Assembly (NCBI RefSeq): GCF_008033235.1
Contig: NZ_CP042432.1
Location: 2,914,001 to 2,978,000, forward strand
Reading direction: 5' to 3'
Length of the DNA: 64,000 bases
Source: Anseongella ginsenosidimutans
Lineage (GTDB): Bacteria; Bacteroidota; Bacteroidia; Sphingobacteriales; Sphingobacteriaceae
The first letter of the stretch is position 1. Each line of letters starts with the position of its first letter. Below, one piece after another: positions 4,950 to 61,200 of the stretch. The position numbers and the translations under genes were made by a program. The notes under the pieces are model-generated. The model was not told the DNA's origin. It saw only the letters and a list, made by a program, of their open reading frames with translations, and searched no databases.

Positions 4950-5888
4950 TTAGCTTATATTATTGGGTCTTAAAAACCCTATATTTCGTTTCAGGCCCGA
5001 AAATTTTGTGCGTTTTACCGCGGACCCCCGGAAAACTTCCCGGAAGGTTTCTTCCGTGAGTTCTTCCCACTCCTGTTTTTTCATTCCCAGGAGATCGGGA
5101 TGAGGGTCAAAGGCCGGCTCGGAATGCGGTTTGGAAAACCGGTTCCAGGGGCAAACATCCTGGCAGGTATCACAGCCGAACATCCAGTTTTCAAACTGCC
5201 CGTGGAAACCCTCCGGAAGCTGGTCTTTTAACTCAATGGTAAAATAGGAAATGCATTTGCTCCCGTCTATTTCGTAGGGCGCCGAAATGGCCTCTGTAGG
5301 GCAGGCGTCAATACAACGGGTGCAGGTGCCGCAATGGTCCGCCGCCGGGTTGTCGTATTCCAGTTCAAGATCGATGACCAGTTCAGCCAGGAAAAAGAAA
5401 GAGCCGGTTTGCTTATTGATCAGGTTGGTATTCTTTCCTGTCCAGCCCAGCCCTGAGCGCCGGGCCCAGGCCTTGTCCATTACCGGGGCCGAATCCACAA
5501 AAGCTCTTCCGCCTACTTCCCCGATCGCCGACTGGATAAAGAACAGCAGTTCCTTGAGCTTGTCCTTGATCACAAAATGATAGTCTTTTCCATAGGCGTA
5601 GCGGGATATCCTGGGCGCTTCCGGATCTTCCTGGGAGCGGGGTGTATAATAATTCAAGCCCAGGGAAATTACCGACCTGGCGCCCTCCACGAGCAGCCGG
5701 GGGTCCAGCCGTTTGTCAAAGTGATTTTCCATGTACTGCATACGGCCGTGCCGGCCTTCCCGCAGCCATTTTTCAAGCTGAACAGCTTCCTCCTCCAGGA
5801 AATCCGCCCTGGAAATACCGCAGAACAGGAATCCCAGCCTTTTGGCTTCCGCTTTGATCAATTTTGTATATGCCGCTGCCTGGTCCAT
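4950..5888 (-). CDS. queG: Epoxyqueuosine reductase QueG
   Basis: 312 residues, normal length. QueG converts epoxyqueuosine to queuosine in tRNA using cobalamin and two [4Fe-4S] clusters. The cluster ligands are clear: Cys186/189/192/196 in [12 protein letters not shown] and Cys212 plus Cys239/242/246 in CDTCQDVCP. The N-terminal cobalamin-binding half shows the family [19 protein letters not shown] block with the conserved Asp132. It lies 9 nt downstream of ruvB on the same strand, so it probably shares that transcript. Confidence 0.97.
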
Positions 5889-16957: not shown

Positions 16958-19387
16958 ATGCTCAAAAATTATTTCAAGATCGCAATTCGCAGCTTAGTAA
17001 ACCAGCGTGGCTATTTCTTGATTAATATTGCTGGGCTATCCGTCGGCATCACGTGTTGTCTGCTCATCTTTCAGTATGTAGCCTTCGAATACAGTTTTGA
17101 CGATTTCAATGAAAACGCCCCAAATCTTTACCGTGTTAACGTAACCACCGTGAGCAGCGGAGACGATCCAAATACCACTCCCACCTTTGGATGGGCGATG
17201 GCTCCCATGATGGCGCAGGAGACGCCTGAAGTCATGCGCTTCGCGCGGTTGCATCCGGAGTATGACAATGCCATTGTTTCTAATCCTACTCAGCCGGCTA
17301 AAGCGTTTGAGGAGGAAGGGGTGTACTATGCTGACCCTGCATTTTTACAGATGTTTTCCTATCCGCTGATTTCCGGTGATCCATCCCTAGCGCTTACCGA
17401 GCCAGAAACGATTATTTTATCAGAGTCTGTGGCTAAAAAATACTTCGGCAGCAAAGATCCTATGGGACAAACGCTTGATGTAAGGGGCTGGATCAGTGGA
17501 AAATTCCGGGTGAGCGGTATTTTTCGTGATATTCCGGTTAATTCGCATCTTCAATTCGATATTCTACTCCCAATGGCCGATCTGTTACAGAAAAGCCAAC
17601 AATATAAAGATCCTATATCAGGCTGGGACTGGAAAAATTTCATCACGTATGTACAATTACATCCAGAGATAAATGTAGCAGCGGTCGAACAGAAGTTCAC
17701 AGATGTGATACTTGAGAACAAGGAAGCAGATTGGCGGCCAACAAAAACCACGGCAAATGTAAATTTACAGCCTGTATGGGATATTCATCTGAATAAAGAC
17801 ATAGCCGCCCCGAAAGCAACTATGGGCAGTTACCGGACCGTTTATTTCTTCATCATCATTGGTTTGATTACGCTGCTGATCGCGCTTGTCAATTATATTA
17901 ATCTGGCCACGGCGCGGGCGCTTAACCGAGCGCGGGAGGTCGGAGTCCGGAAGGCGATCGGGGCCGGGAAGAAACAGCTAATTATTCAGTTTCTGTGTGA
18001 ATCGGTAGTCACACTCCTCATAGCTACTACGCTTGGCATTAGCCTGGCTGCTTTACTAATACCGGCTCTTAGCAAGGTAGCGGATACAACCATTACTCAC
18101 CCTTTGTGGACCGGCCCACATTTCTGGACGGTTTTTCCGGGCATCTTCTTGTCAGCAACGTTGCTTGCCGGCCTATATCCAGCCTTTGTCCTCTCCTCCT
18201 TCAAGCCTGTAGCCGCGCTTAAGGGAAAAGCCGGCACATTTGCCGCCGGAGCAAGATTGCGACGTGGGCTTGTTGTATTCCAGTTCGCCGTCTCTATTGT
18301 AATGCTGGTGGGAACCATGATCGTACATTCACAACTCAACCATATGCGGAATATGGACCTGGGTATGAACCTGGAACAAATCCTTACCGTACCCAGCCCG
18401 CGATTTCTCCCTGATGACACGAATAAGACGGACAGAATTGCACCCTTCCTTCAAGAGTTGCGCCAACTTCCTGGTGTTTGGCAAACTGCTACTTCAGGTT
18501 CTGTTCCCGGACGCGATTTTTCCTTCACCGGAACATTTCGTAAAGCCATGGACGATCCGTCTGCAAATGTAAGCGTTTCTGGCGGGCCAATCGATACCAA
18601 CTTCCTCAGTCTTTATGGCATAGAGCTAGTGGCTGGAGATCTTACTGAAATTTCCTATAGCATTCCAGAGGGTGCCACTCCTCCCATGCTGATTAATGAG
18701 ACGGCTGCTCTTTCCCTCGGCTTCGACAAACCAGCAGATGCTTTGGGTGAAAAACTAACCTTTGGCCGGGTGGCTGGTGTTTTGAAAGATTTCAACTGGT
18801 CATCGGGGCACCAAGCGCGTGGAAATATCATGTTCCAACTCTTCCAGCGCAATTCCCAAATTTCTATTAAAGTGAATACCGCGAATCTGTCTCAGACGAT
18901 CACCTCGATAGAAGAGATCTATAGACAGCATTTCCCGAGCAATCCCTTTCAGTACGCATTCGTTGATGAGCAATTCGAGCAGCAGTACAAGAATGACCAG
19001 CGTTTTGCCCGACTTTTTGCGATATTTACCACATTGGCTATTTTTATTGCCTGTTTAGGTCTGTTCGGCCTTACTGTTTTTTCTGTCAGGCAGCGTACCA
19101 AAGAGATTGGTATCCGAAAAGTGATGGGCGCGTCGATAAGCAATGTAGTAGCTCTTCTTTCCGGGGATTACATCAAACTAGTGCTGATTGCCTCTGCGAT
19201 TGCTACCCCCATTGCCTGGTATGTGATGAATCGCTGGCTGGAAGATTTCGCTTATAGAATAGAAATTCGGTGGTGGATATTTGCACTCGGGGCAACTTTA
19301 TCTGTGGGCCTTGCCTTGCTCACTATAAGCTTTCAATCAATAAAAGCGGCGCTGATGAACCCGGTGAAATCACTAAGATCTGAATGA
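16958..19387 (+). CDS. FtsX/MacB-type ABC transporter permease
   Basis: 809 residues. The N-terminus MLKNYFKIAIRSLVNQRGYFLINIAG starts a MacB-like protein: membrane helix 1 (about 20-43), a large periplasmic domain (about 45-280), an FtsX core with three helices (about 285-410), a second periplasmic domain and a second FtsX core (about 690-800) with VRQRTKEIGIRKVMGAS. This long double-core form is typical of Bacteroidota and is thought to export or shuttle lipophilic or peptide substrates in stress responses. The ATPase partner is not next to it. A sigma54-like promoter and twin dyad lie upstream. Confidence 0.93.
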   Translation: MLKNYFKIAIRSLVNQRGYFLINIAGLSVGITCCLLIFQYVAFEYSFDDFNENAPNLYRVNVTTVSSGDDPNTTPTFGWAMAPMMAQETPEVMRFARLHPEYDNAIVSNPTQPAKAFEEEGVYYADPAFLQMFSYPLISGDPSLALTEPETIILSESVAKKYFGSKDPMGQTLDVRGWISGKFRVSGIFRDIPVNSHLQFDILLPMADLLQKSQQYKDPISGWDWKNFITYVQLHPEINVAAVEQKFTDVILENKEADWRPTKTTANVNLQPVWDIHLNKDIAAPKATMGSYRTVYFFIIIGLITLLIALVNYINLATARALNRAREVGVRKAIGAGKKQLIIQFLCESVVTLLIATTLGISLAALLIPALSKVADTTITHPLWTGPHFWTVFPGIFLSATLLAGLYPAFVLSSFKPVAALKGKAGTFAAGARLRRGLVVFQFAVSIVMLVGTMIVHSQLNHMRNMDLGMNLEQILTVPSPRFLPDDTNKTDRIAPFLQELRQLPGVWQTATSGSVPGRDFSFTGTFRKAMDDPSANVSVSGGPIDTNFLSLYGIELVAGDLTEISYSIPEGATPPMLINETAALSLGFDKPADALGEKLTFGRVAGVLKDFNWSSGHQARGNIMFQLFQRNSQISIKVNTANLSQTITSIEEIYRQHFPSNPFQYAFVDEQFEQQYKNDQRFARLFAIFTTLAIFIACLGLFGLTVFSVRQRTKEIGIRKVMGASISNVVALLSGDYIKLVLIASAIATPIAWYVMNRWLEDFAYRIEIRWWIFALGATLSVGLALLTISFQSIKAALMNPVKSLRSE

Positions 19388-19400
19388 AAAACACAGACTC

Positions 19401-19451
19401 ATGTTGAAAAACGATTTCAAAATTGCCTGGCGCAACCTAGATGGGCTTTAA
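19401..19451 (+). pseudogene. Truncated start of a second FtsX-type permease
   Basis: Sixteen codons after a fresh ATG read MLKNDFKIAWRNLDGL and stop. The first 13 match the conserved N-terminus of the same permease family (compare MLKNYFKIAIRSL of the gene 13 nt upstream). The rest of the gene is gone, so a tandem permease partner has been deleted. The next genes differ in type and composition, consistent with a deletion or replacement boundary near 19440. Confidence 0.7.
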
Positions 19452-19615
19452 TAAGGAGCAGGTGGTAGCCCCGACAGGTTATGCTTTTTTAGGTCCAAAC
19501 TTTTTAAGTCCTCATGCTGACAGCTCAAATTAAAACCCCGGCTTGTACCGGGAATTGCGTAAACGACTGAACAGCCTAGTTGATGAGAAATGACCAATAT
19601 TTGACGAATATTTGT

Positions 19616-19623
19616 TATATTTG
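19616..19623 (+). promoter_or_regulatory. TAnnTTTG -7 box of the nucleotidyltransferase operon
   Basis: TATATTTG ends 5 nt before the ATG of the first gene. Short TATTTG repeats just upstream (19598-19614) crowd the region. No TTG at ideal spacing is evident. Confidence 0.55.
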
Positions 19624-19628
19624 TCAAT

Positions 19629-20060
19629 ATGAAAAAGATTGGTAGCAAAGATAAACGGGTAGTTGTTCTGCAATGGAAAGAACCGGCCGGTACGAGGGTG
19701 GAGGTTTTCTCCAACCTAAAGAACCTCTGCTTGAATTATCCTGAGTTTAATTATAACACGTTAAATAACTACCTGGGCAAGGGGAGGACGGCTTATGAGA
19801 AAGATCACGTAAAGATCGAGCGGAAAACCGTGCTTACCAAGCCAGACATGCCTGCTACGATCACAAAAAGAAGCATTGCGCCGGTAGTACGAACGGTGAA
19901 GCTGCACGAGGCTAATGATAGCGAGCGTGATTTGATTTATTGGCTTGCTCAGCCCCCTAAAAAGCGCCTTGAAGCAGTTGCTTTTATCGTATCTCAATCC
20001 CTGACAAAAAACCAAAGAATGGATAAGACTTCCATAAGAACCGTAAAAATCAATGAATGA
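19629..20060 (+). CDS. Small partner protein of nucleotidyltransferase
   Basis: 143 residues, in two parts. Residues 1-65 (VVVLQWKEPAGTRVEVFSNL, YNTLNNYLGKGR, YEKDHVKIERK) look like a small DNA- or ligand-binding module; residues 84-143 (RDLIYWLAQPPKKRLEAVAF...NQRMDKTSIRTVKI) resemble the short helical proteins often encoded directly before MNT-type nucleotidyltransferases. Its stop overlaps the next start (ATGA), so the products are likely made in fixed ratio and may bind each other. A toxin-antitoxin or modifier role is inference; function is unknown. Confidence 0.72.
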   Translation: MKKIGSKDKRVVVLQWKEPAGTRVEVFSNLKNLCLNYPEFNYNTLNNYLGKGRTAYEKDHVKIERKTVLTKPDMPATITKRSIAPVVRTVKLHEANDSERDLIYWLAQPPKKRLEAVAFIVSQSLTKNQRMDKTSIRTVKINE

Positions 20061-20548
20061 TACTGGCAAAAGATTTTGAGGATTTTATCGCGCTGTTGAA
20101 TAAGCATCAGGTAGATTATATGGTTGTTGGCGGATATGCCCTCGCTTTGCACGGTGCGCCCAGGCATACCGGGGATCTGGATATTTGGATTGACGTATCT
20201 AAAGAGAATGCTATCCGTTTAATGCAAGTGATCCGGAACTTTGGAATGGGCTCGTTAGGCCTGACCGAGGAAGATTTTTTAAAGCCGGGGTATATTACTC
20301 AAATCGGTTATCCTCCGTTACGAATCGATATCTTAAATGAAATCGACGGAGTCACATTTGGAGATGCCAGAAAGAACAGGCAACAGGTAGATATGGATGG
20401 GCAAACGCTTTTCTATATCGGCCTTCAGGATTTTATACAGAACAAAACGGCTTCAGGCAGAAAAAGAGATCTACAGGATATCAGGGAGATCAAGGGGAAA
20501 CCCCTAAAGCCAACACAAAACCGGGGAAGGGAGGGACATGGCCTTTAG
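20057..20548 (+). CDS. MNT-type nucleotidyltransferase (DUF6036-like)
   Basis: 163 residues. The polymerase-beta fold is visible: VVGGYALALHGAPRHTGDLDIWID holds the GG and the first two catalytic acids (Asp40, Asp42), and LRIDIL gives the third (Asp91). Related proteins adenylylate protein or RNA partners and act in toxin-antitoxin systems such as AbiEii or MNT-HEPN; no HEPN gene is present here. It overlaps by 4 nt with the upstream small partner gene. Stand-alone housekeeping nucleotide transfer cannot be excluded. Confidence 0.82.
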   Translation: MILAKDFEDFIALLNKHQVDYMVVGGYALALHGAPRHTGDLDIWIDVSKENAIRLMQVIRNFGMGSLGLTEEDFLKPGYITQIGYPPLRIDILNEIDGVTFGDARKNRQQVDMDGQTLFYIGLQDFIQNKTASGRKRDLQDIREIKGKPLKPTQNRGREGHGL

Positions 20549-20579
20549 GCGTGAATGCCCCTCACACCAAACCATGTAG

Positions 20580-20884
20580 ATGGCTACCAATAAAAGTGGC
20601 TGGGATATCTTTACCAAGACCCTGAAGACAATAGGTATTGGGAGCTAACCTTCCCTCAAAGTGAGATGCATGGTGGTGGACCTCCTCATCTAACTAGTTG
20701 TCGGAACCTGAAGCAAGTGATAAATATTTCTTTAAATGACCAGGGAATAGACATAGATACTTTGCGTGTAAGAGACAGTACAAAGGTTGGTTATTATCGG
20801 CACTTTACCTTTTATATTGACGGGGTAAAACAGAACGTTTTAGGGAAAGAAGCCGACGGCTGGAGACAATCGGTTTTTTACTAA
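20580..20884 (+). pseudogene. Frameshifted remnant resembling immunity protein Imm27
   Basis: One frame reads ATNKSGWD (20583-20606); the next frame continues GYLYQDPEDNRYWELTFP then QSEMHGGGPPHL (20603-20694). Joined by one missing base near 20607 they match the Imm27 pattern sGW..LY.DP.D.RYWELTyP.sEMhGGGPP. A stop lies just before the ATG at 20580, so the N-terminal half is lost. The following 60 codons (to 20884) stay open but do not look like Imm27. Imm27 proteins neutralise polymorphic toxins. The identification is from memory of the family pattern. Confidence 0.55.
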
Positions 20885-48600: not shown

Positions 48601-49194
48601 ATGCTGAAGTACGCGATGCCGAATCTTTATATAATAGCAGGTTGTAACGGGGCTGGTAAAACTACCGCAAGCTATACGTTATTGCCACAGATCTTAAATT
48701 GCCGGGAATTTGTAAATGCCGACAGTATTGCTGCAGGGCTTTCTCCCTTCGAACCAGATGGAGTCGCTTTTGAAGCTGGCAGGATTATGCTGCGGCGGAT
48801 TCGGCAGCTAATGAACGAAAGAGAGGATTTTGCTTTCGAAACCACACTTTCAACCCGAAGCTATGTTTCTTTAGTAAGAGAGGCACAGGGAAAAGGCTAT
48901 ATAATTACTTTGGTCTATTTTTGGCTACGATCCTTTGAACAAGCAATGGAGCGCGTTAGGATCAGGGTAAGCAAAGGGGGACACCATATTCCGACGGACG
49001 TAATAAAACGTAGATACGACCGAGGGATTGACAATTTGTTTCACTTGTATATTCCTGCCTGCGATTACTGGTTGGTAGTTGATAATTCAGGCAAAGAGCC
49101 GGATATGGTGGCTGAAGGAGAAACAAATCTACCGGAAGTCATCTATAATACCGATATTTGGGATATCATCAAAGAACAAGGAAGATGGCCATAA
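48601..49194 (+). CDS. Zeta-toxin-like P-loop kinase
   Basis: 197 residues (ATG 48601; ATG 48616 is an alternative, giving MPNLYIIAG). Walker A GCNGAGKT (14-21), then FVNADSIAAGLSPF with the acid that positions substrate, DFAFETTLSTRSY and an Arg-rich lid (RVRIRVSKGGHHIP, RRYDRGIDN). This is the zeta/PezT-related group found chromosomally in many phyla; classical zeta phosphorylates UDP-N-acetylglucosamine. Toxicity is not shown. The stop overlaps the start of a 58-residue gene by 10 nt, a toxin-partner layout with the kinase first, unlike epsilon-zeta. Confidence 0.85.
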   Translation: MLKYAMPNLYIIAGCNGAGKTTASYTLLPQILNCREFVNADSIAAGLSPFEPDGVAFEAGRIMLRRIRQLMNEREDFAFETTLSTRSYVSLVREAQGKGYIITLVYFWLRSFEQAMERVRIRVSKGGHHIPTDVIKRRYDRGIDNLFHLYIPACDYWLVVDNSGKEPDMVAEGETNLPEVIYNTDIWDIIKEQGRWP

Positions 49195-55393: not shown

Positions 55394-56209
55394 TCATGCT
55401 GCTTTGCCCGTCAGGTACAAACTGGCTGGTTTTCTTCGTCCGATCCCTTGATGGGATTTATAAAAGTTATAACGGTGGAAAAAGGCACGAAGTCCTTGTT
55501 CCAGTTCCCATCCGTCCAGCGCCGGGTTCAGGTACACGTATTCGTACTTTACCGTACGCCACAGCCGCTCAATGAACACGTTGTCAATCGCTCTTCCTTT
55601 GCCGTCCATGCTGATCTTGATGCCCAGCTGCGGAAGAAGCGATATCCATTCCCGGCAGGTAAACTGGCTGCCTTGATCGGAATTAACGATCTCCGGTTTT
55701 CCGTGCCGCTTCACCGCTTCTTTTACCAGTGAACAGACCCACTCGGAGGTCATGCTGTTGGAAAGGCTCCAGGCCACCACAAAGCGGCTATGCAGGTCAA
55801 TAATGGCGGCCAGGTACATGAACCCCTTTTTCATTGGGATGTACGTTATATCCACAGCCCACACCTGATTAGGGCGTTCGATCTTCAGGTTCCGAAGCAG
55901 GTAGGGCCGGATGTATTCGGCCTTGCCCAATTTGGTCAGTATACGCCGGGGATATTGCGCCCGGATGCCCATCTTGCGCATTAACCGCCGGATCCGCTTG
56001 TGATTCACCTGGAGGCCCTCATCCCGAAAGTAATCCTGCAATTGCAGCACGCCTTCGGTCGGGTATTGCAAATGACGCTCATCCATCCTCCGCATCAGCG
56101 CAAGGTTTTTTTCTCCTTCTCCGACCGGGGTGTAATAAATTCCGCTGCGGTGAAGTTCCAGCAACTCACACTGCCGGCGCACGCTCAATCGATGGGAAGG
56201 TGTGATCAT
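55394..56209 (-). CDS. IS3-family transposase OrfB (DDE catalytic part)
   Basis: 271 residues from its first Met. rve integrase core with Asp120 (VWAVDITYIPM), Asp178 (NSDQGSQF) and Glu214 (NVFIERLWRTVKYEYV), preceded by HTH_21 (RRIRRLMRKMGI). The frame is open upstream to the slippery site, so the active protein is the OrfAB fusion. Apparently intact. Confidence 0.95.
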   Translation of the reverse strand: MITPSHRLSVRRQCELLELHRSGIYYTPVGEGEKNLALMRRMDERHLQYPTEGVLQLQDYFRDEGLQVNHKRIRRLMRKMGIRAQYPRRILTKLGKAEYIRPYLLRNLKIERPNQVWAVDITYIPMKKGFMYLAAIIDLHSRFVVAWSLSNSMTSEWVCSLVKEAVKRHGKPEIVNSDQGSQFTCREWISLLPQLGIKISMDGKGRAIDNVFIERLWRTVKYEYVYLNPALDGWELEQGLRAFFHRYNFYKSHQGIGRRKPASLYLTGKAA

Positions 56210-56223
56210 CGCTCTACGATCGG

Positions 56224-56514
56224 TTAATGGAGCTTTTTCAAGCTTTTTTTTAAAAAGTCATTTTCCAGCTCCAGTTGGCCGATCTTAGCATACAGCCGGT
56301 CGGGATCCACCTGTTCTTCTTGATCCGCCTCTTTGTCAAACACGTGAGCGGACTTTTCCAGAAACTCCTGTTTCCACTTGCTGATCATTACCGCGTGAAC
56401 TTCGAACCGCTGAGCCAATTCTGCCAGCGTTTCCTTTTCCTTCAGCGCTTCCAGCGCCACTTTGGCCTTGAAGGCCGAACTGAATTTTCTACGTTTTCCT
56501 TTCATTGTTACCAC
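56224..56514 (-). CDS. IS3-family transposase OrfA (HTH part)
   Basis: 96 residues. RRKFSSAFKAKVALEALKEK and LAELAQRFEVHAVMISKWKQEF form the HTH_Tnp_1 domain, followed by a leucine-zipper coiled coil (LYAKIGQLELENDFLKKSL). It ends just after the slippery run. Met4 is an alternative start. Confidence 0.94.
   Translation of the reverse strand: MVTMKGKRRKFSSAFKAKVALEALKEKETLAELAQRFEVHAVMISKWKQEFLEKSAHVFDKEADQEEQVDPDRLYAKIGQLELENDFLKKSLKKLH
56244..56251 (-). promoter_or_regulatory. Slippery A8 run for -1 frameshifting between orfA and orfB
   Basis: On the minus strand TTTTTAAAAAAAAGCTTG near the orfA end lets ribosomes slip by -1 (AAAAAAAG). The -1 frame is open from here through KLEKAPLTDRRAMITPS into orfB, giving the fused transposase. 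Confidence 0.8.
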
Positions 56515-56546
56515 GAAGTTAGTTACTTATTTTTTTAACTTAACCA

Positions 56547-57125
56547 GTGGTCCTGATTTTGGGGAGTATTACAAAATTAGCGAAAATAAAATCGTTTTTC
56601 CTGTATGCTGTTCTATTGTATTCTTGCAGCAGCGAAAACAAGATAGTTAATGAAGTGAATGTAGTCTATCGCCAAAGAGAAGAATTACTTGATTGTTTTG
56701 AAGGGTTAAGTGTTTTCAGACGTGGCGAGATTATTCAATTAAATATCTATAACTCCAGATTATCGAATGAATATTTTTTCTTGGAAGAAAAAAATAATGG
56801 AAAAAGAAGCATCGCATTTCTTAGAGATAGTTTGCAATTTGACATTTCTACCTTAAGAAAATTCTCTGGCATCAGTAAAGAGTATTCAGATCAAGAGGAG
56901 TTTAGAACACGAATACTGCCGCATCTATTGGATAAAATGCAGGAACTCAATATTGTTTCCTTTACTTCTGAATTTTCTTCACATGGCGTGACCCTTAAAA
57001 TCTATTTACAGGAGTACGAATTATTAGTTATTTCAAACATCAATGCAATTAAAAATGACCAATGGCGAGATTACATACAGGATTCAAGTCAAATCGACGA
57101 TCATTGGTTTTGGAGAAAAATATAG
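56547..57125 (+). CDS. Putative lipoprotein, 5' end altered by the IS3 insertion
   Basis: The frame begins at a GTG inside the IS end and reads through it. The natural N-terminus seems to be around KIKSFFLYAVLLYSCSS, a lipoprotein signal with lipobox LYSC, but no ATG remains before it. The body (EVNVVYRQREELLDCFEGL, YFFLEEKNNGKRSIAFLRD, LNIVSFTSEFSSHGVTLKIY) has no known motif. The IS has probably replaced start codon and promoter; expression, if any, depends on the IS end. Confidence 0.6.
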   Translation: MVLILGSITKLAKIKSFFLYAVLLYSCSSENKIVNEVNVVYRQREELLDCFEGLSVFRRGEIIQLNIYNSRLSNEYFFLEEKNNGKRSIAFLRDSLQFDISTLRKFSGISKEYSDQEEFRTRILPHLLDKMQELNIVSFTSEFSSHGVTLKIYLQEYELLVISNINAIKNDQWRDYIQDSSQIDDHWFWRKI

Positions 57126-57175
57126 AAAGGCAGGCTGAATGGTATATTTGTTTTTTTTGCAAATATTGTTAGATA

Positions 57176-57300
57176 CTTAACGTCTGTAGATTTTACGACA
57201 GAAACGGCTACATAGTACAATCGGCAGTCGTAACGAGGATGAATGCTGCCGGTACTAACGTGACTGGGCCCTACAAGAACAAAGAAAGACCATTAGAATA
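57176..57300 (+). pseudogene. C-terminal tail of a lost larger protein, copy 2 (NAAGTNV motif)
   Basis: After a stop at 57172-57174 the frame reads ILNVCRFYDRNGYIVQSAVV then TRMNAAGTNVTGPY and KNKERPLE, and stops at TAA overlapping the next ATG (TAATG). No start codon fits. It resembles the 3' end of a toxin-like gene placed directly before its immunity gene. The motif recurs at 50933-50970. The toxin reading is inference. Confidence 0.5.
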
Positions 57301-57690
57301 ATGGTAAAAATTACAGAAAAGGAAATAGAAGCGGTGTCAGCATTAGCTCCTTACGAGCGCTATAAATATTTCATTAAGCGTGTCGCTGATACGGAATTGA
57401 TGTATTCTCTTAAAAGTCCAGATGGAAATTGGGCCATATCGGAAGTCGAGGCCTCTAAGTTATTCCCTTTGTGGTCAGCGAAGGAGTTTGCTGAACAGTC
57501 TAAGACCGTCTGGTTGGTTGGACTTTACATTGAGGAGATCACTTTGGAAACTTTTGAGGATGAACTTTTGGAGTTTGTTCATTCACAGGGTTATCTTTTG
57601 AATGTTTTTGCAGTTGGGCAAAACACAGGCTTTGTGGTTGATATAGTTGAATTTGCAAAAGACTCGAGCGAAGAAATGAAAAATTACTGA
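57301..57690 (+). CDS. DUF2750 protein
   Basis: 129 residues. LAPYERYKYFIKRVADTELMYSL, GNWAISEVEASKLFPLWSAKEFAE and ITLETFEDELLEFVHSQGYLLNVF follow the DUF2750 pattern. The family is often found among immunity genes of polymorphic toxin loci. Its ATG overlaps the stop of a remnant tail (TAATG), which implies coupling to a vanished upstream gene. Confidence 0.85.
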   Translation: MVKITEKEIEAVSALAPYERYKYFIKRVADTELMYSLKSPDGNWAISEVEASKLFPLWSAKEFAEQSKTVWLVGLYIEEITLETFEDELLEFVHSQGYLLNVFAVGQNTGFVVDIVEFAKDSSEEMKNY

Positions 57691-57709
57691 GATAGCACTT
57701 AAAGAAGAT

Positions 57710-58189
57710 ATGATAAAGAAGCAAAAACCGGTACCGGGAGATATTGTAAAAGTGAAGATTGATGAGTCAATGCATACTTACGCAAGAATATTAAATTACA
57801 CCGATTTTGCATTTTATGATGCACTGACTAGCGAGGACATAAAAGCCGTTGAGGAGATTGTGTCAAAGCCAATCCTGTTTAAGGCAATAGTTAATGATAG
57901 AGGAGTCGAAGATGGCCTTTGGCCTATCATTGGAAATGTTCCTTTGGAAGATTCCTTAATGAATTCCACATACTACCTTCCGGATATTGTAGATCCAAGT
58001 CATTTCCGGATACGAGAAAACGTTAAAATTCGAGAAGCTTCAAGAGAAGAATGTGTTGGATTGGAGGTGGGTGTTATTTGGGATCCTATCCATATAGAAC
58101 AACGGTTAAAAGACCATTACGAAGGAAATGAAAATATTGGCTTAAAAACGCTCGACATACTTGAAAATTACAAACTTGGTCGGGATTGA
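57710..58189 (+). CDS. Immunity protein 26 (Imm26)-like
   Basis: 159 residues. VPGDIVKVKIDESMHTYARIL, GLWPIIGNVP, YLPDIVDP and ASREECVGLEVGVIWDPIHIEQRL match the Imm26 layout: an N-terminal beta part and the ECxGLE...W.P.HI end. Imm26 proteins bind and block secreted nuclease-type toxins. It follows DUF2750 by 19 nt; no toxin gene is intact nearby. Confidence 0.82.
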   Translation: MIKKQKPVPGDIVKVKIDESMHTYARILNYTDFAFYDALTSEDIKAVEEIVSKPILFKAIVNDRGVEDGLWPIIGNVPLEDSLMNSTYYLPDIVDPSHFRIRENVKIREASREECVGLEVGVIWDPIHIEQRLKDHYEGNENIGLKTLDILENYKLGRD

Positions 58190-58524
58190 AGTAGCTGCTT
58201 TTTTAGTTGCTCCAATATTATCTTTCTCCCGGTATAATGGTCCGGATCGGAAAGCCATCTTTCCAGGTCACTTTCAGAAGAGATAATATCTAAAGCTCGT
58301 TCCTTTACAACATCTAAAAGGGTGCAGCTTTCCATTTGTATAGCTGCTAAGGATAACCAAATTACATGTGATTCATCTGGATCTTGCATTTCATCCTCAA
58401 ACTTTTCCACAATTAATGAGGTGGCTTCCTGGGCCGAAAGGCCTATTTTAGTGCTATTATTATATTCATCACGAATATCCATCGCGAGATCGTCGTCAAA
58501 AATATTTATTCCCCAAACGCCCAT
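58168..58524 (-). CDS. DUF4259 protein
   Basis: 118 residues. MGVWGINIFDDDLAMDIRDEY is the DUF4259 signature (MGxWGxxxFdnDxAxD). The rest is helical with VIWLSLAAIQMESCTLL. Members are found in immunity-gene arrays; activity unknown. The 3' end overlaps the convergent Imm26-like gene by 22 nt. Confidence 0.87.
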   Translation of the reverse strand: MGVWGINIFDDDLAMDIRDEYNNSTKIGLSAQEATSLIVEKFEDEMQDPDESHVIWLSLAAIQMESCTLLDVVKERALDIISSESDLERWLSDPDHYTGRKIILEQLKKQLLQSRPSL

Positions 58525-58612
58525 AACTTATGCAAACTTTATTAACTCTCAAATATGTACAATACCTTTGGAAAATAAGATTATCTGAATATAGTAGATC
58601 TGTTTAATCCGT

Positions 58613-58618
58613 TAACGC
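58613..58618. repeat. Left copy of IS21 target-site duplication
   Basis: TAACGC directly before the left IS end; the right copy is at 61201-61206. Confidence 0.85.
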
Positions 58619-58710
58619 TGTAACCGGAAACTCAAAGTGCACAGTTTTTGGCAATTAGGAATGCACAGTTTTTGGAAACAAGGGTGCACAATTACCGGGT
58701 CAAATATAGG

Positions 58711-59472
58711 TTAAGCAGTGGAGTGTTCAAAGATAGATTTTCGATGCTTTAAACGATAGCTTTTTCCGGTGAGTGTGATGGCTTCGCACCGGTAGAGCAG
58801 GCGGTCCAATAGAGCGGTTGCCAGGACCTCGTCGCCCAGCAGGCCTGCCCATTCAGCCGGCATCTTATTGGTAGTGATAATGAAGGAAGTGCTTTCATAC
58901 AAATGGTTAATGAAGTTGAACAAGGCGACGGCCTGAGCTTTTTCTACCGGGAAGAGCATCATATCGTCGATGACGATGAGTTGTGCCTTGGTCAGGCGTT
59001 TATAGTCGGCCATGGCAGATCGGGTCATGTCTTTCATTTTCAGCATATTCATAATATCCTCCATTGTTCGGAAGAAGGCATTGTACCCTCCCTGGATGGC
59101 GTCTCTGCAGAGACCGGCCGCCAAATGTGTTTTACCCACGCCGCTGGGACCGAGCAGGATGATATTATAGATTTGATCTAACCAGTTAAGCTCCCTGAGC
59201 TGATTTAAGCGATTTTTAGGAAGGCCGTTCTCCACGGTGGCATCGTAGGCTTCCAGGGAAGAGGAGGCAGGCAGGCGGGCGGTTTTTAACCGCCTTTCCA
59301 TTTCCCGCTGCTGGCGATGGGAAGCTTCTGTCTCAAGAAGATTCCAGGTGAATTCGGTCAGGCCCATTTCCTGGGATTCCCCCTGGGCGATGAGCGTGTC
59401 CAGGGAGTGGGCGATCCCGCTCATCTTAAACTGCTTGCACAGGTGTTTGATCTGTTCTTTTTTTTCTGTCAT
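58711..59472 (-). CDS. istB: IS21 helper ATPase IstB
   Basis: 253 residues. AAA+ ATPase with Walker A GPSGVGKT (108-115) and Walker B AQLIVIDDMM (Asp169, Asp170), preceded by the N-terminal IstB helical domain (HLCKQFKMSGIAHSLDTLI). It selects target DNA and activates IstA. Located 21 nt after istA. Confidence 0.96.
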   Translation of the reverse strand: MTEKKEQIKHLCKQFKMSGIAHSLDTLIAQGESQEMGLTEFTWNLLETEASHRQQREMERRLKTARLPASSSLEAYDATVENGLPKNRLNQLRELNWLDQIYNIILLGPSGVGKTHLAAGLCRDAIQGGYNAFFRTMEDIMNMLKMKDMTRSAMADYKRLTKAQLIVIDDMMLFPVEKAQAVALFNFINHLYESTSFIITTNKMPAEWAGLLGDEVLATALLDRLLYRCEAITLTGKSYRLKHRKSIFEHSTA

Positions 59473-59493
59473 GATCTAATAGTGAAGTGGTTA

Positions 59494-61053
59494 TTATTTA
59501 CCGTTTAACAATTGCTCGTAATCATCGATATTACTTTTATCGGGGGCTGTCAGGGCCGCCAGCGGAAGCTTCCCTCCTAAGGGGTTTAGATAGCGGATGT
59601 TGCTTTGGCCGTCTTTCTGCTCCTTTTGTTTGCCATAGTGTGCTACCAGAGCCCGAAAATCGGTGGCGCTGACGATCTGCCGGGCAAGGGCATATTCCAG
59701 GGCTTGTTTCACGATCTCCTTATCGGCTCCCTGGATGATCTCCCTGAGCAGTAGCAGCTGATCGCGCACGTAACGGGGCTTGTCTTTCCGGATCCGCTGC
59801 AGCAGCTGCCGCCCCAGATCCGGCTCTTCCAGCAAAGCGGCTACCTCTTCGATAAGTGCCGAGATGGGCCCTGACTTATCCCGTTTGTGATCGTTATTGA
59901 TGATCTTCTGTCCCTTCCCCGCAGAGATGGTATGCTTGCAAATCAATTTGCCTTCTTCCCCCCAGATTACCAGCTGAGTGCCCTCCACCTGAAGGGTGAC
60001 CTGACTTCCCCTGCCCTGGTAGGTGCCCAGGGGAAGAGAGTAGTAATTACTTTTGAAGCAGATGGTGTTGTCTTTTCGCACGGTATAAGCTGCCTTCACC
60101 GGGGTAACGGCAATGGGTGTGTAAGGAACCAGGAATGGCTGCTCAGTGACCCATTCGCTGTAAGGGACCTTGCCGGTTCCCTCGTGGGTGAGGGCATTGG
60201 CGGTGCGCCCCAACCAGCCTAATGCTTCTTCCTGCAGGGTGTCCGGGTCGTAATAGGTACGGTTATACAGGAAGTTCTGCTTGACATACCGGATCACGTT
60301 CTCCACCTTTCCCTTGCTCTGGGGATCTGCCTTGCGGCAGAAGTGGAGGCGGAAGGCGCGCAGACGGACATACTGCCGGAAGGCATCGGTCAGGATCAGG
60401 TCACCATGGTTTTCACTGATAAGAAACAGCCGGTCCTGGTCATAAACGGCTTCCCCGGCGACTCCGCCAAAGAAAGCAAACCCTGCTTCATGAGCGGTGA
60501 TGGCCTCCTCAGTAGTAAACGGATGATCCAGGAACCAAACATACTTGTAGCGGGACCGGGAAAGTACCATCGTCAAAAAAAAGACCTTGGCAGTACCGCC
60601 ATCACTTCTGCGCATATTGTATTGCCCGAAATCAACCTGGACCTGCAGCCCATAGGGAAGCTCAGGGACGGGGCCACAGTCTCTCAACATTTTGGTGCGG
60701 GGGATGTTGTATTTTTCCCGCATGGAGGCGACGAAATTAAAAACAGTTCGGCTACTAACCGGGGGGAGATCAGCATGATGCTCCTTCAGCCAATCAAACA
60801 ACTGAGCGGCTGATGTGTCCGGGTAAAGGGTTAAGCGTTCTTTGATAAACCCTTCATAAGGCAGCAGTGTTTTGGGGCGCCGGGTTCCACTGATCAGGTG
60901 CTGCTCATAGTCCTGCTCGCTCATGAGCAGGTACTTTTTGACGGTTCGTCGGTTAATGCCCAGCGTTCGGCTGATGTAGGACACGGAACAATCTTCGCGG
61001 TCCATGCGGTGAATCTCGTAATACATCATAAATTTGTTCAAGAATACATTCAT
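59494..61053 (-). CDS. istA: IS21 transposase IstA
   Basis: 519 residues from ATG 61053; the longer frame from 61116 adds 21 residues without similarity. N-terminal HTH (SVSYISRTLGINRRTVKKYL), DDE core with VQVDFGQYNM, VYDQDRLFL and KVENVIRYVKQNFLY, and a C-terminal Mu-like beta barrel. No internal stop. Confidence 0.95.
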   Translation of the reverse strand: MNVFLNKFMMYYEIHRMDREDCSVSYISRTLGINRRTVKKYLLMSEQDYEQHLISGTRRPKTLLPYEGFIKERLTLYPDTSAAQLFDWLKEHHADLPPVSSRTVFNFVASMREKYNIPRTKMLRDCGPVPELPYGLQVQVDFGQYNMRRSDGGTAKVFFLTMVLSRSRYKYVWFLDHPFTTEEAITAHEAGFAFFGGVAGEAVYDQDRLFLISENHGDLILTDAFRQYVRLRAFRLHFCRKADPQSKGKVENVIRYVKQNFLYNRTYYDPDTLQEEALGWLGRTANALTHEGTGKVPYSEWVTEQPFLVPYTPIAVTPVKAAYTVRKDNTICFKSNYYSLPLGTYQGRGSQVTLQVEGTQLVIWGEEGKLICKHTISAGKGQKIINNDHKRDKSGPISALIEEVAALLEEPDLGRQLLQRIRKDKPRYVRDQLLLLREIIQGADKEIVKQALEYALARQIVSATDFRALVAHYGKQKEQKDGQSNIRYLNPLGGKLPLAALTAPDKSNIDDYEQLLNGK

Positions 61054-61200
61054 CTTCGACGTGTTTTGGTGAACCGCCGAAGCTCGGGAAATCCGGGAAT
61101 GGGGCCGCGGCCCCATTCCCGGAAAACCTGTGCATTCTTGTTGCCAAATTCTGGGTATTCCTATTTTCTATTTTTTGTGCATTCTTATTTTCCGTTTACA

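Follow-up and report, generated by a model that had tools for sequence, protein, structure and literature searches.

The pair of genes described here lies in a window of 64,000 nucleotides, the whole stretch of DNA that was analysed, from the 4.32-Mb, one-contig genome of Anseongella ginsenosidimutans. Both open reading frames (ORFs) of the two-gene nucleotidyltransferase (NTase) system announced by the original prediction were found on the forward strand. The upstream ORF (19629..20060) encodes an antitoxin-like partner protein of 143 amino acids, consisting of an N-terminal module and a helical tail, with relatives in the loci that we numbered L107 to L184. The downstream ORF (20057..20548) encodes an NTase of 163 amino acids of the DUF6036/DUF2204 type, proposed to be a toxin on the basis of its Pfam matches, a MenT1-like model and invariant residues. 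The two genes overlap by 4 bp (ATGA), an overlap shared by 23 of the 29 named relatives whose NTase is intact. The module covers approximately residues 7-70 (19647..19838, + strand); it also occurs without this tail, in DUF6922 proteins, and is the proposed DNA-binding domain. The tail (residues 81-143; 19869..20057, + strand), proposed to neutralise the toxin, was modelled as helical and has stand-alone relatives of 53-80 amino acids adjoining NTases. Upstream of the partner gene, sequence comparison revealed a palindrome, TGACCAATAT-N7-ATATTTGTTA (19591..19617), which is a candidate operator and putative binding site of the module. It is overlapped by a -7 promoter box of the TAnnTTTG type, TATATTTG (19616..19623, + strand), ending 5 nt before the ATG.

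The context of the pair had been called foreign-looking, for which the signal was weak, with GC contents of 0.438 and 0.449 for the two genes and 0.473 for the whole window. Just upstream of the pair, a second FtsX-type permease start (19401-19451) runs for 16 codons to a stop; it resembles the beginning of the intact permease at 16958 and is a deletion or rearrangement scar. The region 3' of the NTase gene (20549-20884) holds an apparent remnant of an immunity-type gene, which we take to resemble Imm27, and the 72-amino-acid ORF within it (20666-20884) had no Pfam match. Farther away, an ORF with a P-loop (GCNGAGKTT) at 48601-49194 resembles a zeta-type toxin, and ORFs within 55394-61116 look to us like IS3 and IS21 (IstA/IstB) type transposase genes.

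The pair is accessory: the partner was matched in 6 of 296 genomes of the phylum, its own genome included, and the one genome of the same genus that was examined (G296, 92% complete) had no match to the pair. It is thus far from a universally conserved core pair. The flanking permease, sought in G296 as an anchor for an empty-site comparison, had no match there either. The whole partner matched none of 72,556 plasmid records and none of 50,697 phage records, and a plasmid or phage home for the pair was rejected on this basis; likewise, the module of locus L102 had no match in the plasmid records and that of L185 none in the phage records. Relatives of the NTase, all below 60% identity, were present on 20 plasmid records, including those of Synechocystis, Geminocystis, Acidisarcina and Spirosoma.

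The NTase scored above the Pfam cut-offs for DUF6036 (30.3 bits, cut-off 23.6) and DUF2204 (21.8 bits, cut-off 20.3) and below that for AbiEii (PF08843; 13.6 bits, cut-off 22.5). Its best match in PADLOC was AbiEii, with an E value of 0.0051. The top structural match of the predicted NTase model (pLDDT 85.1) was MenT1 (Z 13.5, 3.3 Å over 134 residues), tied with TM1012 (Z 13.2) and followed by LnuA (Z 11.1) and ANT(2'') (Z 10.0-10.3). Among solved structures, the NTase profile also matched MenT1 best (E 3.6e-4), with no other match at E 0.01 or better. T38-x-D40-x-D42 of the NTase aligns to T39-x-D41-x-D43 of MenT1, and K130 and D141 to K137 and D152 (numbered as in the MenT1 paper; the chain as printed is numbered one lower). 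The residues T38, D40, D42, D91, K130 and D141 are invariant in 30 of 30 sequences. As modelled, the NTase has the fold and active site of the MenT type.

Searches of Pfam, NCBIfam and PADLOC gave no convincing family match for the partner. An AbiEi-type partner was rejected, since no such model matched at E 10 or better in these three collections, and so was a HEPN partner, HEPN being absent both from the matches of the window's protein and from the families listed for 36 partners. The six phylum genomes in which the partner was matched were informative as to its architecture. Besides its own genome, two had matches confined to residues 5-76 or 7-76, in 167-amino-acid proteins that carry another tail, contain DUF6922 (80.2 and 75.3 bits, cut-off 27) and are encoded directly behind a tyrosine integrase. 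Two others matched residues 81-140 alone, as short proteins, and the sixth match (31% identity inside a 377-amino-acid protein) looks like chance. The two parts were therefore matched separately and in different proteins, which bears out the proposed two-module reading.

The likeness of the tail to small proteins encoded alone, also part of the original prediction, was upheld by a search led by the NTase, in which 31 of 100 relatives had a match. We fetched 29 of these loci and scored 28 by script, leaving out L036, in which a small partner is kept beside an NTase fragment. A stand-alone partner of 53-80 amino acids adjoined the NTase in 22 of the 28. The other six comprised the fusion itself (L008), two loci with a small frame overlapping the NTase start (L024 and L030), one with a small gene downstream (L035), one with a decayed NTase start (L017) and a divergent one in which the NTase had no recognised partner (L033).

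Confidence in the partner model (mean pLDDT 79.3) is concentrated in the module, with values of 85-95 across residues 11-70. It is predicted to fold as strand (10-16), strand (24-27), helix (30-36), helix (42-51) and strand (61-67); the tail contains helices at 102-107 and 110-124. The module matches no known family, and structure database searches gave no significant fold match for it; with Foldseek, nothing in the PDB matched the partner at E 0.001 or better. The best fold matches of the module, both weak and both to DNA enzymes, were I-HmuI 109-174 (Z 4.8, rmsd 5.2, 63 residues) and a phage HNH endonuclease (rmsd 2.2, 61 columns, E 0.015). We take the matched segment of I-HmuI to be its helix-turn-helix part. 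These matches raised the idea of homology to the NUMOD1 modules of homing endonucleases, which sequence comparison did not support: a NUMOD1 sequence profile had no match in 17 module members, and hhalign gave a probability of 0.1% for the module against 8 NUMOD1 stretches. Homology of the tail to MenA1 was not found either. Its profile retrieved 17 matches at E values up to 10, none of them a MenA1 chain, for proteins that are very short and divergent, and the top-ranking haemagglutinin and antibody chains look like chance.

The module was matched in 52 of 400 genomes of the order. A scan of a species-genome collection, using two peptide patterns taken from an alignment rich in sphingobacterial sequences and hence favouring close relatives, resulted in 78 module loci, all in records with Bacteroidota names. 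A script assigned a tail of the window type to 35 and a DUF6922 tail to 42; the remaining locus, L181, is truncated, was left without a tail call and was counted in the DUF6922 class (43 loci) for the site and integrase analyses. The neighbourhood analysis showed that the type of gene downstream goes with the type of tail. An adjacent DUF6036-type NTase longer than 140 amino acids follows 29 of the 35 window-type tails, and an AbiEii-type NTase of at least 190 amino acids is present in 35 of the 43 DUF6922-class loci, the others having NTases that are shorter, split, at contig ends or missing. The single DUF6922-class NTase compared with Pfam matched AbiEii with 59.3 bits (cut-off 22.5). Both classes coexist in some strains, such as Pedobacter sp. 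L105 with loci L112 and L136. A scan of viral contigs yielded one stand-alone relative of the module, 69 amino acids long (L185:4980-5189), which lacks an NTase tail, has a promoter of near-leaderless type and may be a free regulator.

Side-by-side reading of the upstream sequences brought out an element absent from the original prediction, a palindrome of approximately TGACCAATAT-N6/7-ATATTGGTCA at the promoters of both tail classes. Sites were scored over two half-sites of 10 bp (20 positions), with dinucleotide shuffles as controls, and the window site departs from the half-site consensus at 2 of the 20. At most 4 mismatches were found in 71 of 80 module loci versus 2 of 1600 shuffles, and at most 6 in 79 of 80 versus 143 of 1600, with a consensus derived from the same loci that were later scored, a bias from which the module-free controls described below are free. 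In these counts L184, split by a frameshift, was scored once, and L185 was included; the best upstream candidate of the latter (5 mismatches, spacer of 8) was unconvincing and was rejected as an operator. The sole locus above 6 mismatches, L160, has a long palindrome approximately 30-80 bases 5' of position 4971, with an AATATT-N4-AATATT core and other outer bases. Over 785 kb of sequence (loci and window), all 57 sites with at most 3 mismatches and a spacer of 6-7 bp lay at a module gene. The exact core pattern occurs once in the 4.32-Mb genome, both strands considered, and this occurrence is the window site; since five other places carry the core with one mismatch and a backward control pattern gave 8 matches, only the exact core match is informative.

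Most of the module loci are related to each other, and dereplication left 15 in the window class and 9 in the DUF6922 class. In the former, the half-sites hold 1.51 and 1.28 bits per column versus 0.15 and 0.40 for the flanks. The contrast is weaker in the latter (1.02 and 1.09 versus 0.43 and 0.54), in which the 9 loci provided 8 aligned rows, two of them misfits, L182 being dropped for lack of a flank. A spacer of 7 bp separates the half-sites in all 36 window-class loci, and one of 6 bp in 40 of the 42 scorable DUF6922-class loci, as if module protein and site had become adapted to each other in each class, to judge from these sequences.

TAnnTTTG is the -7 element of Bacteroidota. Such a box ends 0-12 nt upstream of an in-frame start codon in 68 of the 80 module loci versus 62 of 4000 shuffles (51 of 4000 in an earlier control with a narrower start rule), in agreement with the leaderless-type promoter predicted for the pair. 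No clear -33 element was identified for the window promoter. Because the operator overlaps the -7 box, a protein bound to it would cover the promoter.

Crossed controls showed that the site tracks the module. All 24 stand-alone loci, which encode a tail of this kind and no module, had at least 7 mismatches and hence no palindrome. For DUF6922 proteins, a control set of 30 loci provided 29 frames from 27 loci (phmmer found no frame in L216, L217 and L220): among the 26 module-free frames, 25 had at least 7 mismatches and one had 6, and the three module-bearing frames from the same search had 3, 3 and 5. Fifteen of the 26 module-free frames begin with a stretch resembling an XRE-type helix-turn-helix; the one tested matched HTH_3 with 18.4 bits, below the cut-off of 23. 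Since either the module or an XRE-like stretch stands at the same N-terminal place, this seems to be a place where DNA-binding domains are exchanged. The control loci (L193-L222) thus display DUF6922 antitoxin-like proteins that are bare, have an XRE-like N-terminus or have the module, three solutions at one place. As in an autoregulated operon, an inverted repeat over the promoter accompanies the putative DNA-binding part of the antitoxin.

The NTase is broken or absent, with the partner frame open, in 6 of the 35 window-type loci of the species-genome collection: frameshifted in L115, internally deleted in L179, cut to its first 15 codons in L134 and not found in L126, L130 and L180. These loci were found through the partner, so that partner loss could not show among them, and in the NTase-led set an NTase without a partner occurred at most once (L033). 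In a second copy of the pair in genome G320 both genes are broken.

We consider it probable, at about 0.72, that the locus encodes a MenT-like toxin-antitoxin pair whose antitoxin has gained an operator-binding, autorepressing domain, toxicity and DNA binding both being putative. The MenT-type fold and active site, the gene overlap, the patchy distribution, the NTase losses and the module-linked palindrome all speak for a toxin-antitoxin pair with a DNA-binding N-terminal module, as originally suggested, and the family is a poorly described one. The downstream NTase would be the toxin and, by analogy with MenT1, would most likely add nucleotides to tRNA 3' ends or a similar RNA. The helical tail would keep it inactive, as its position and the example of MenA1 suggest. 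Two subunits of the module would bind the palindrome at 19591-19617, over the promoter, and so repress the operon; a fall in the antitoxin level would then abolish repression and neutralisation together. As the stand-alone relatives of the tail lack both module and site, the fusion appears to have brought transcriptional control to a short, non-regulatory antitoxin. The same module and site also occur with DUF6922 antitoxins of AbiEii-type NTases.

The module might instead be an excisionase or another recombination factor for tyrosine integrases, its link with NTases reflecting life in integrative elements and not autoregulation. An integrase is encoded within 3 kb upstream of 37 of the 43 DUF6922-class loci, the window-type fusion locus of G320 follows and overlaps its integrase gene, and the module-free DUF6922 control frames have no integrase upstream on the same strand within 1.5 kb, all of which would fit such a role. 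We nevertheless judge it improbable, because only 1 of the 35 window-type loci has an integrase upstream and none adjoins the pair of the window, yet the site is kept, and because every one of the 57 close sites belongs to a module promoter and no integrase promoter in the loci has one. One DUF6922-class element (L093:2717-7888), probably mobile, encodes an integrase, the module-DUF6922 protein and an AbiEii-type NTase, with a DUF5712 gene farther along; in L095, which is similar, there is an HTH_17 gene.

It is similarly doubtful that the NTase modifies a small molecule, like antibiotic adenylyltransferases, with the partner as its regulator or accessory subunit. The fold is common to the antibiotic-modifying LnuA and ANT(2''), and the Pfam match to aminoglycoside adenylyltransferase reached 18.9 bits, under the cut-off of 21; MenT1 nonetheless scores higher in structure and stands alone in the profile search, some loci retain the partner after loss of the NTase, and the module is common to AbiEii-type pairs. 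That the palindrome serves another protein or is a promoter feature, the module binding RNA or protein, would suit a module without significant fold match whose DNA binding is only proposed, but is most unlikely given that module and site go together with either tail and either kind of NTase, that module-free relatives lack the site and that the spacer follows the fusion class.

The autorepression reading can be carried further, into a speculation that we hold to be rather unlikely. Module and palindrome might constitute a portable control cassette, passed on whole between two different NTase toxin-antitoxin families; where an integrase is linked, it might also couple control of the toxin with the integrase, in which case a single circuit would join mobility or loss of the element with toxin release, and the 6-bp and 7-bp spacers would keep the classes from cross-talk within one genome.

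Several known systems resemble the pair in part. MenAT1 (MenT1/MenA1, Rv0078A-Rv0078B) shares the NTase fold, the active-site residues and a short helical antitoxin part encoded by the upstream gene, and differs in that the present antitoxin has an extra module and a candidate operator. MenA1 is a protein of 68 amino acids that blocks MenT1 and lacks an apparent DNA-binding domain (PMC10435456). It induces MenT1 phosphorylation at T39, and a reporter assay showed no transcriptional autoregulation by MenAT1 (PMC11375011). AbiE and Rv2827c (type IV; COG5340 antitoxin, DUF1814 toxin) combine a two-domain antitoxin with an NTase toxin, and AbiEi and Rv2827c autoregulate via inverted repeats in the promoter (PMC7319586); in contrast, the present partner has no AbiEi-type match and its NTase is below the AbiEii cut-off. 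The enzyme of the pair, a MenT-like NTase, thus recalls MenAT1, and the logic of the pair, with putative control by an inverted repeat, recalls AbiE; neither the MenA1 nor the AbiEi antitoxin family was detectable in the partner by sequence search. The module-bearing DUF6922-AbiEii pairs of Bacteroidota share the N-terminal module and the palindrome, but differ in the tail (PF21956), the NTase family (PF08843), the 6-bp spacer and the position, mostly behind an integrase. HEPN-MNT pairs also join a small NTase to a helical partner, in their case a HEPN protein, for which the present partner has no match; fusions of HEPN antitoxins with a DNA-binding domain were reported in 2009 (PMC2701414).

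In the open-licence full-text literature, which was the scope of the search and excludes subscription papers, we found no title on the module and, by title, nothing related to DUF6036, DUF6922 or DUF2204. What is new is probably, on the sequence comparisons made here, the antitoxin with an operator-binding module, the MenT-like NTase toxin-antitoxin kind being known. The short antitoxin of this kind that has been studied best, MenA1, lacks a DNA-binding domain and is encoded in an operon without autoregulation (PMC10435456, PMC11375011). Since the same kind of tail exists with and without the module, and the module comes with a recognisable site, the addition of autorepression would be testable on natural relatives. 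The palindrome provides a DNA signature for finding more such loci, and groups of Bacteroidota proteins listed as unknown, namely the partners of DUF6036 NTases, DUF6922 and the module itself, would acquire roles that can be tested.
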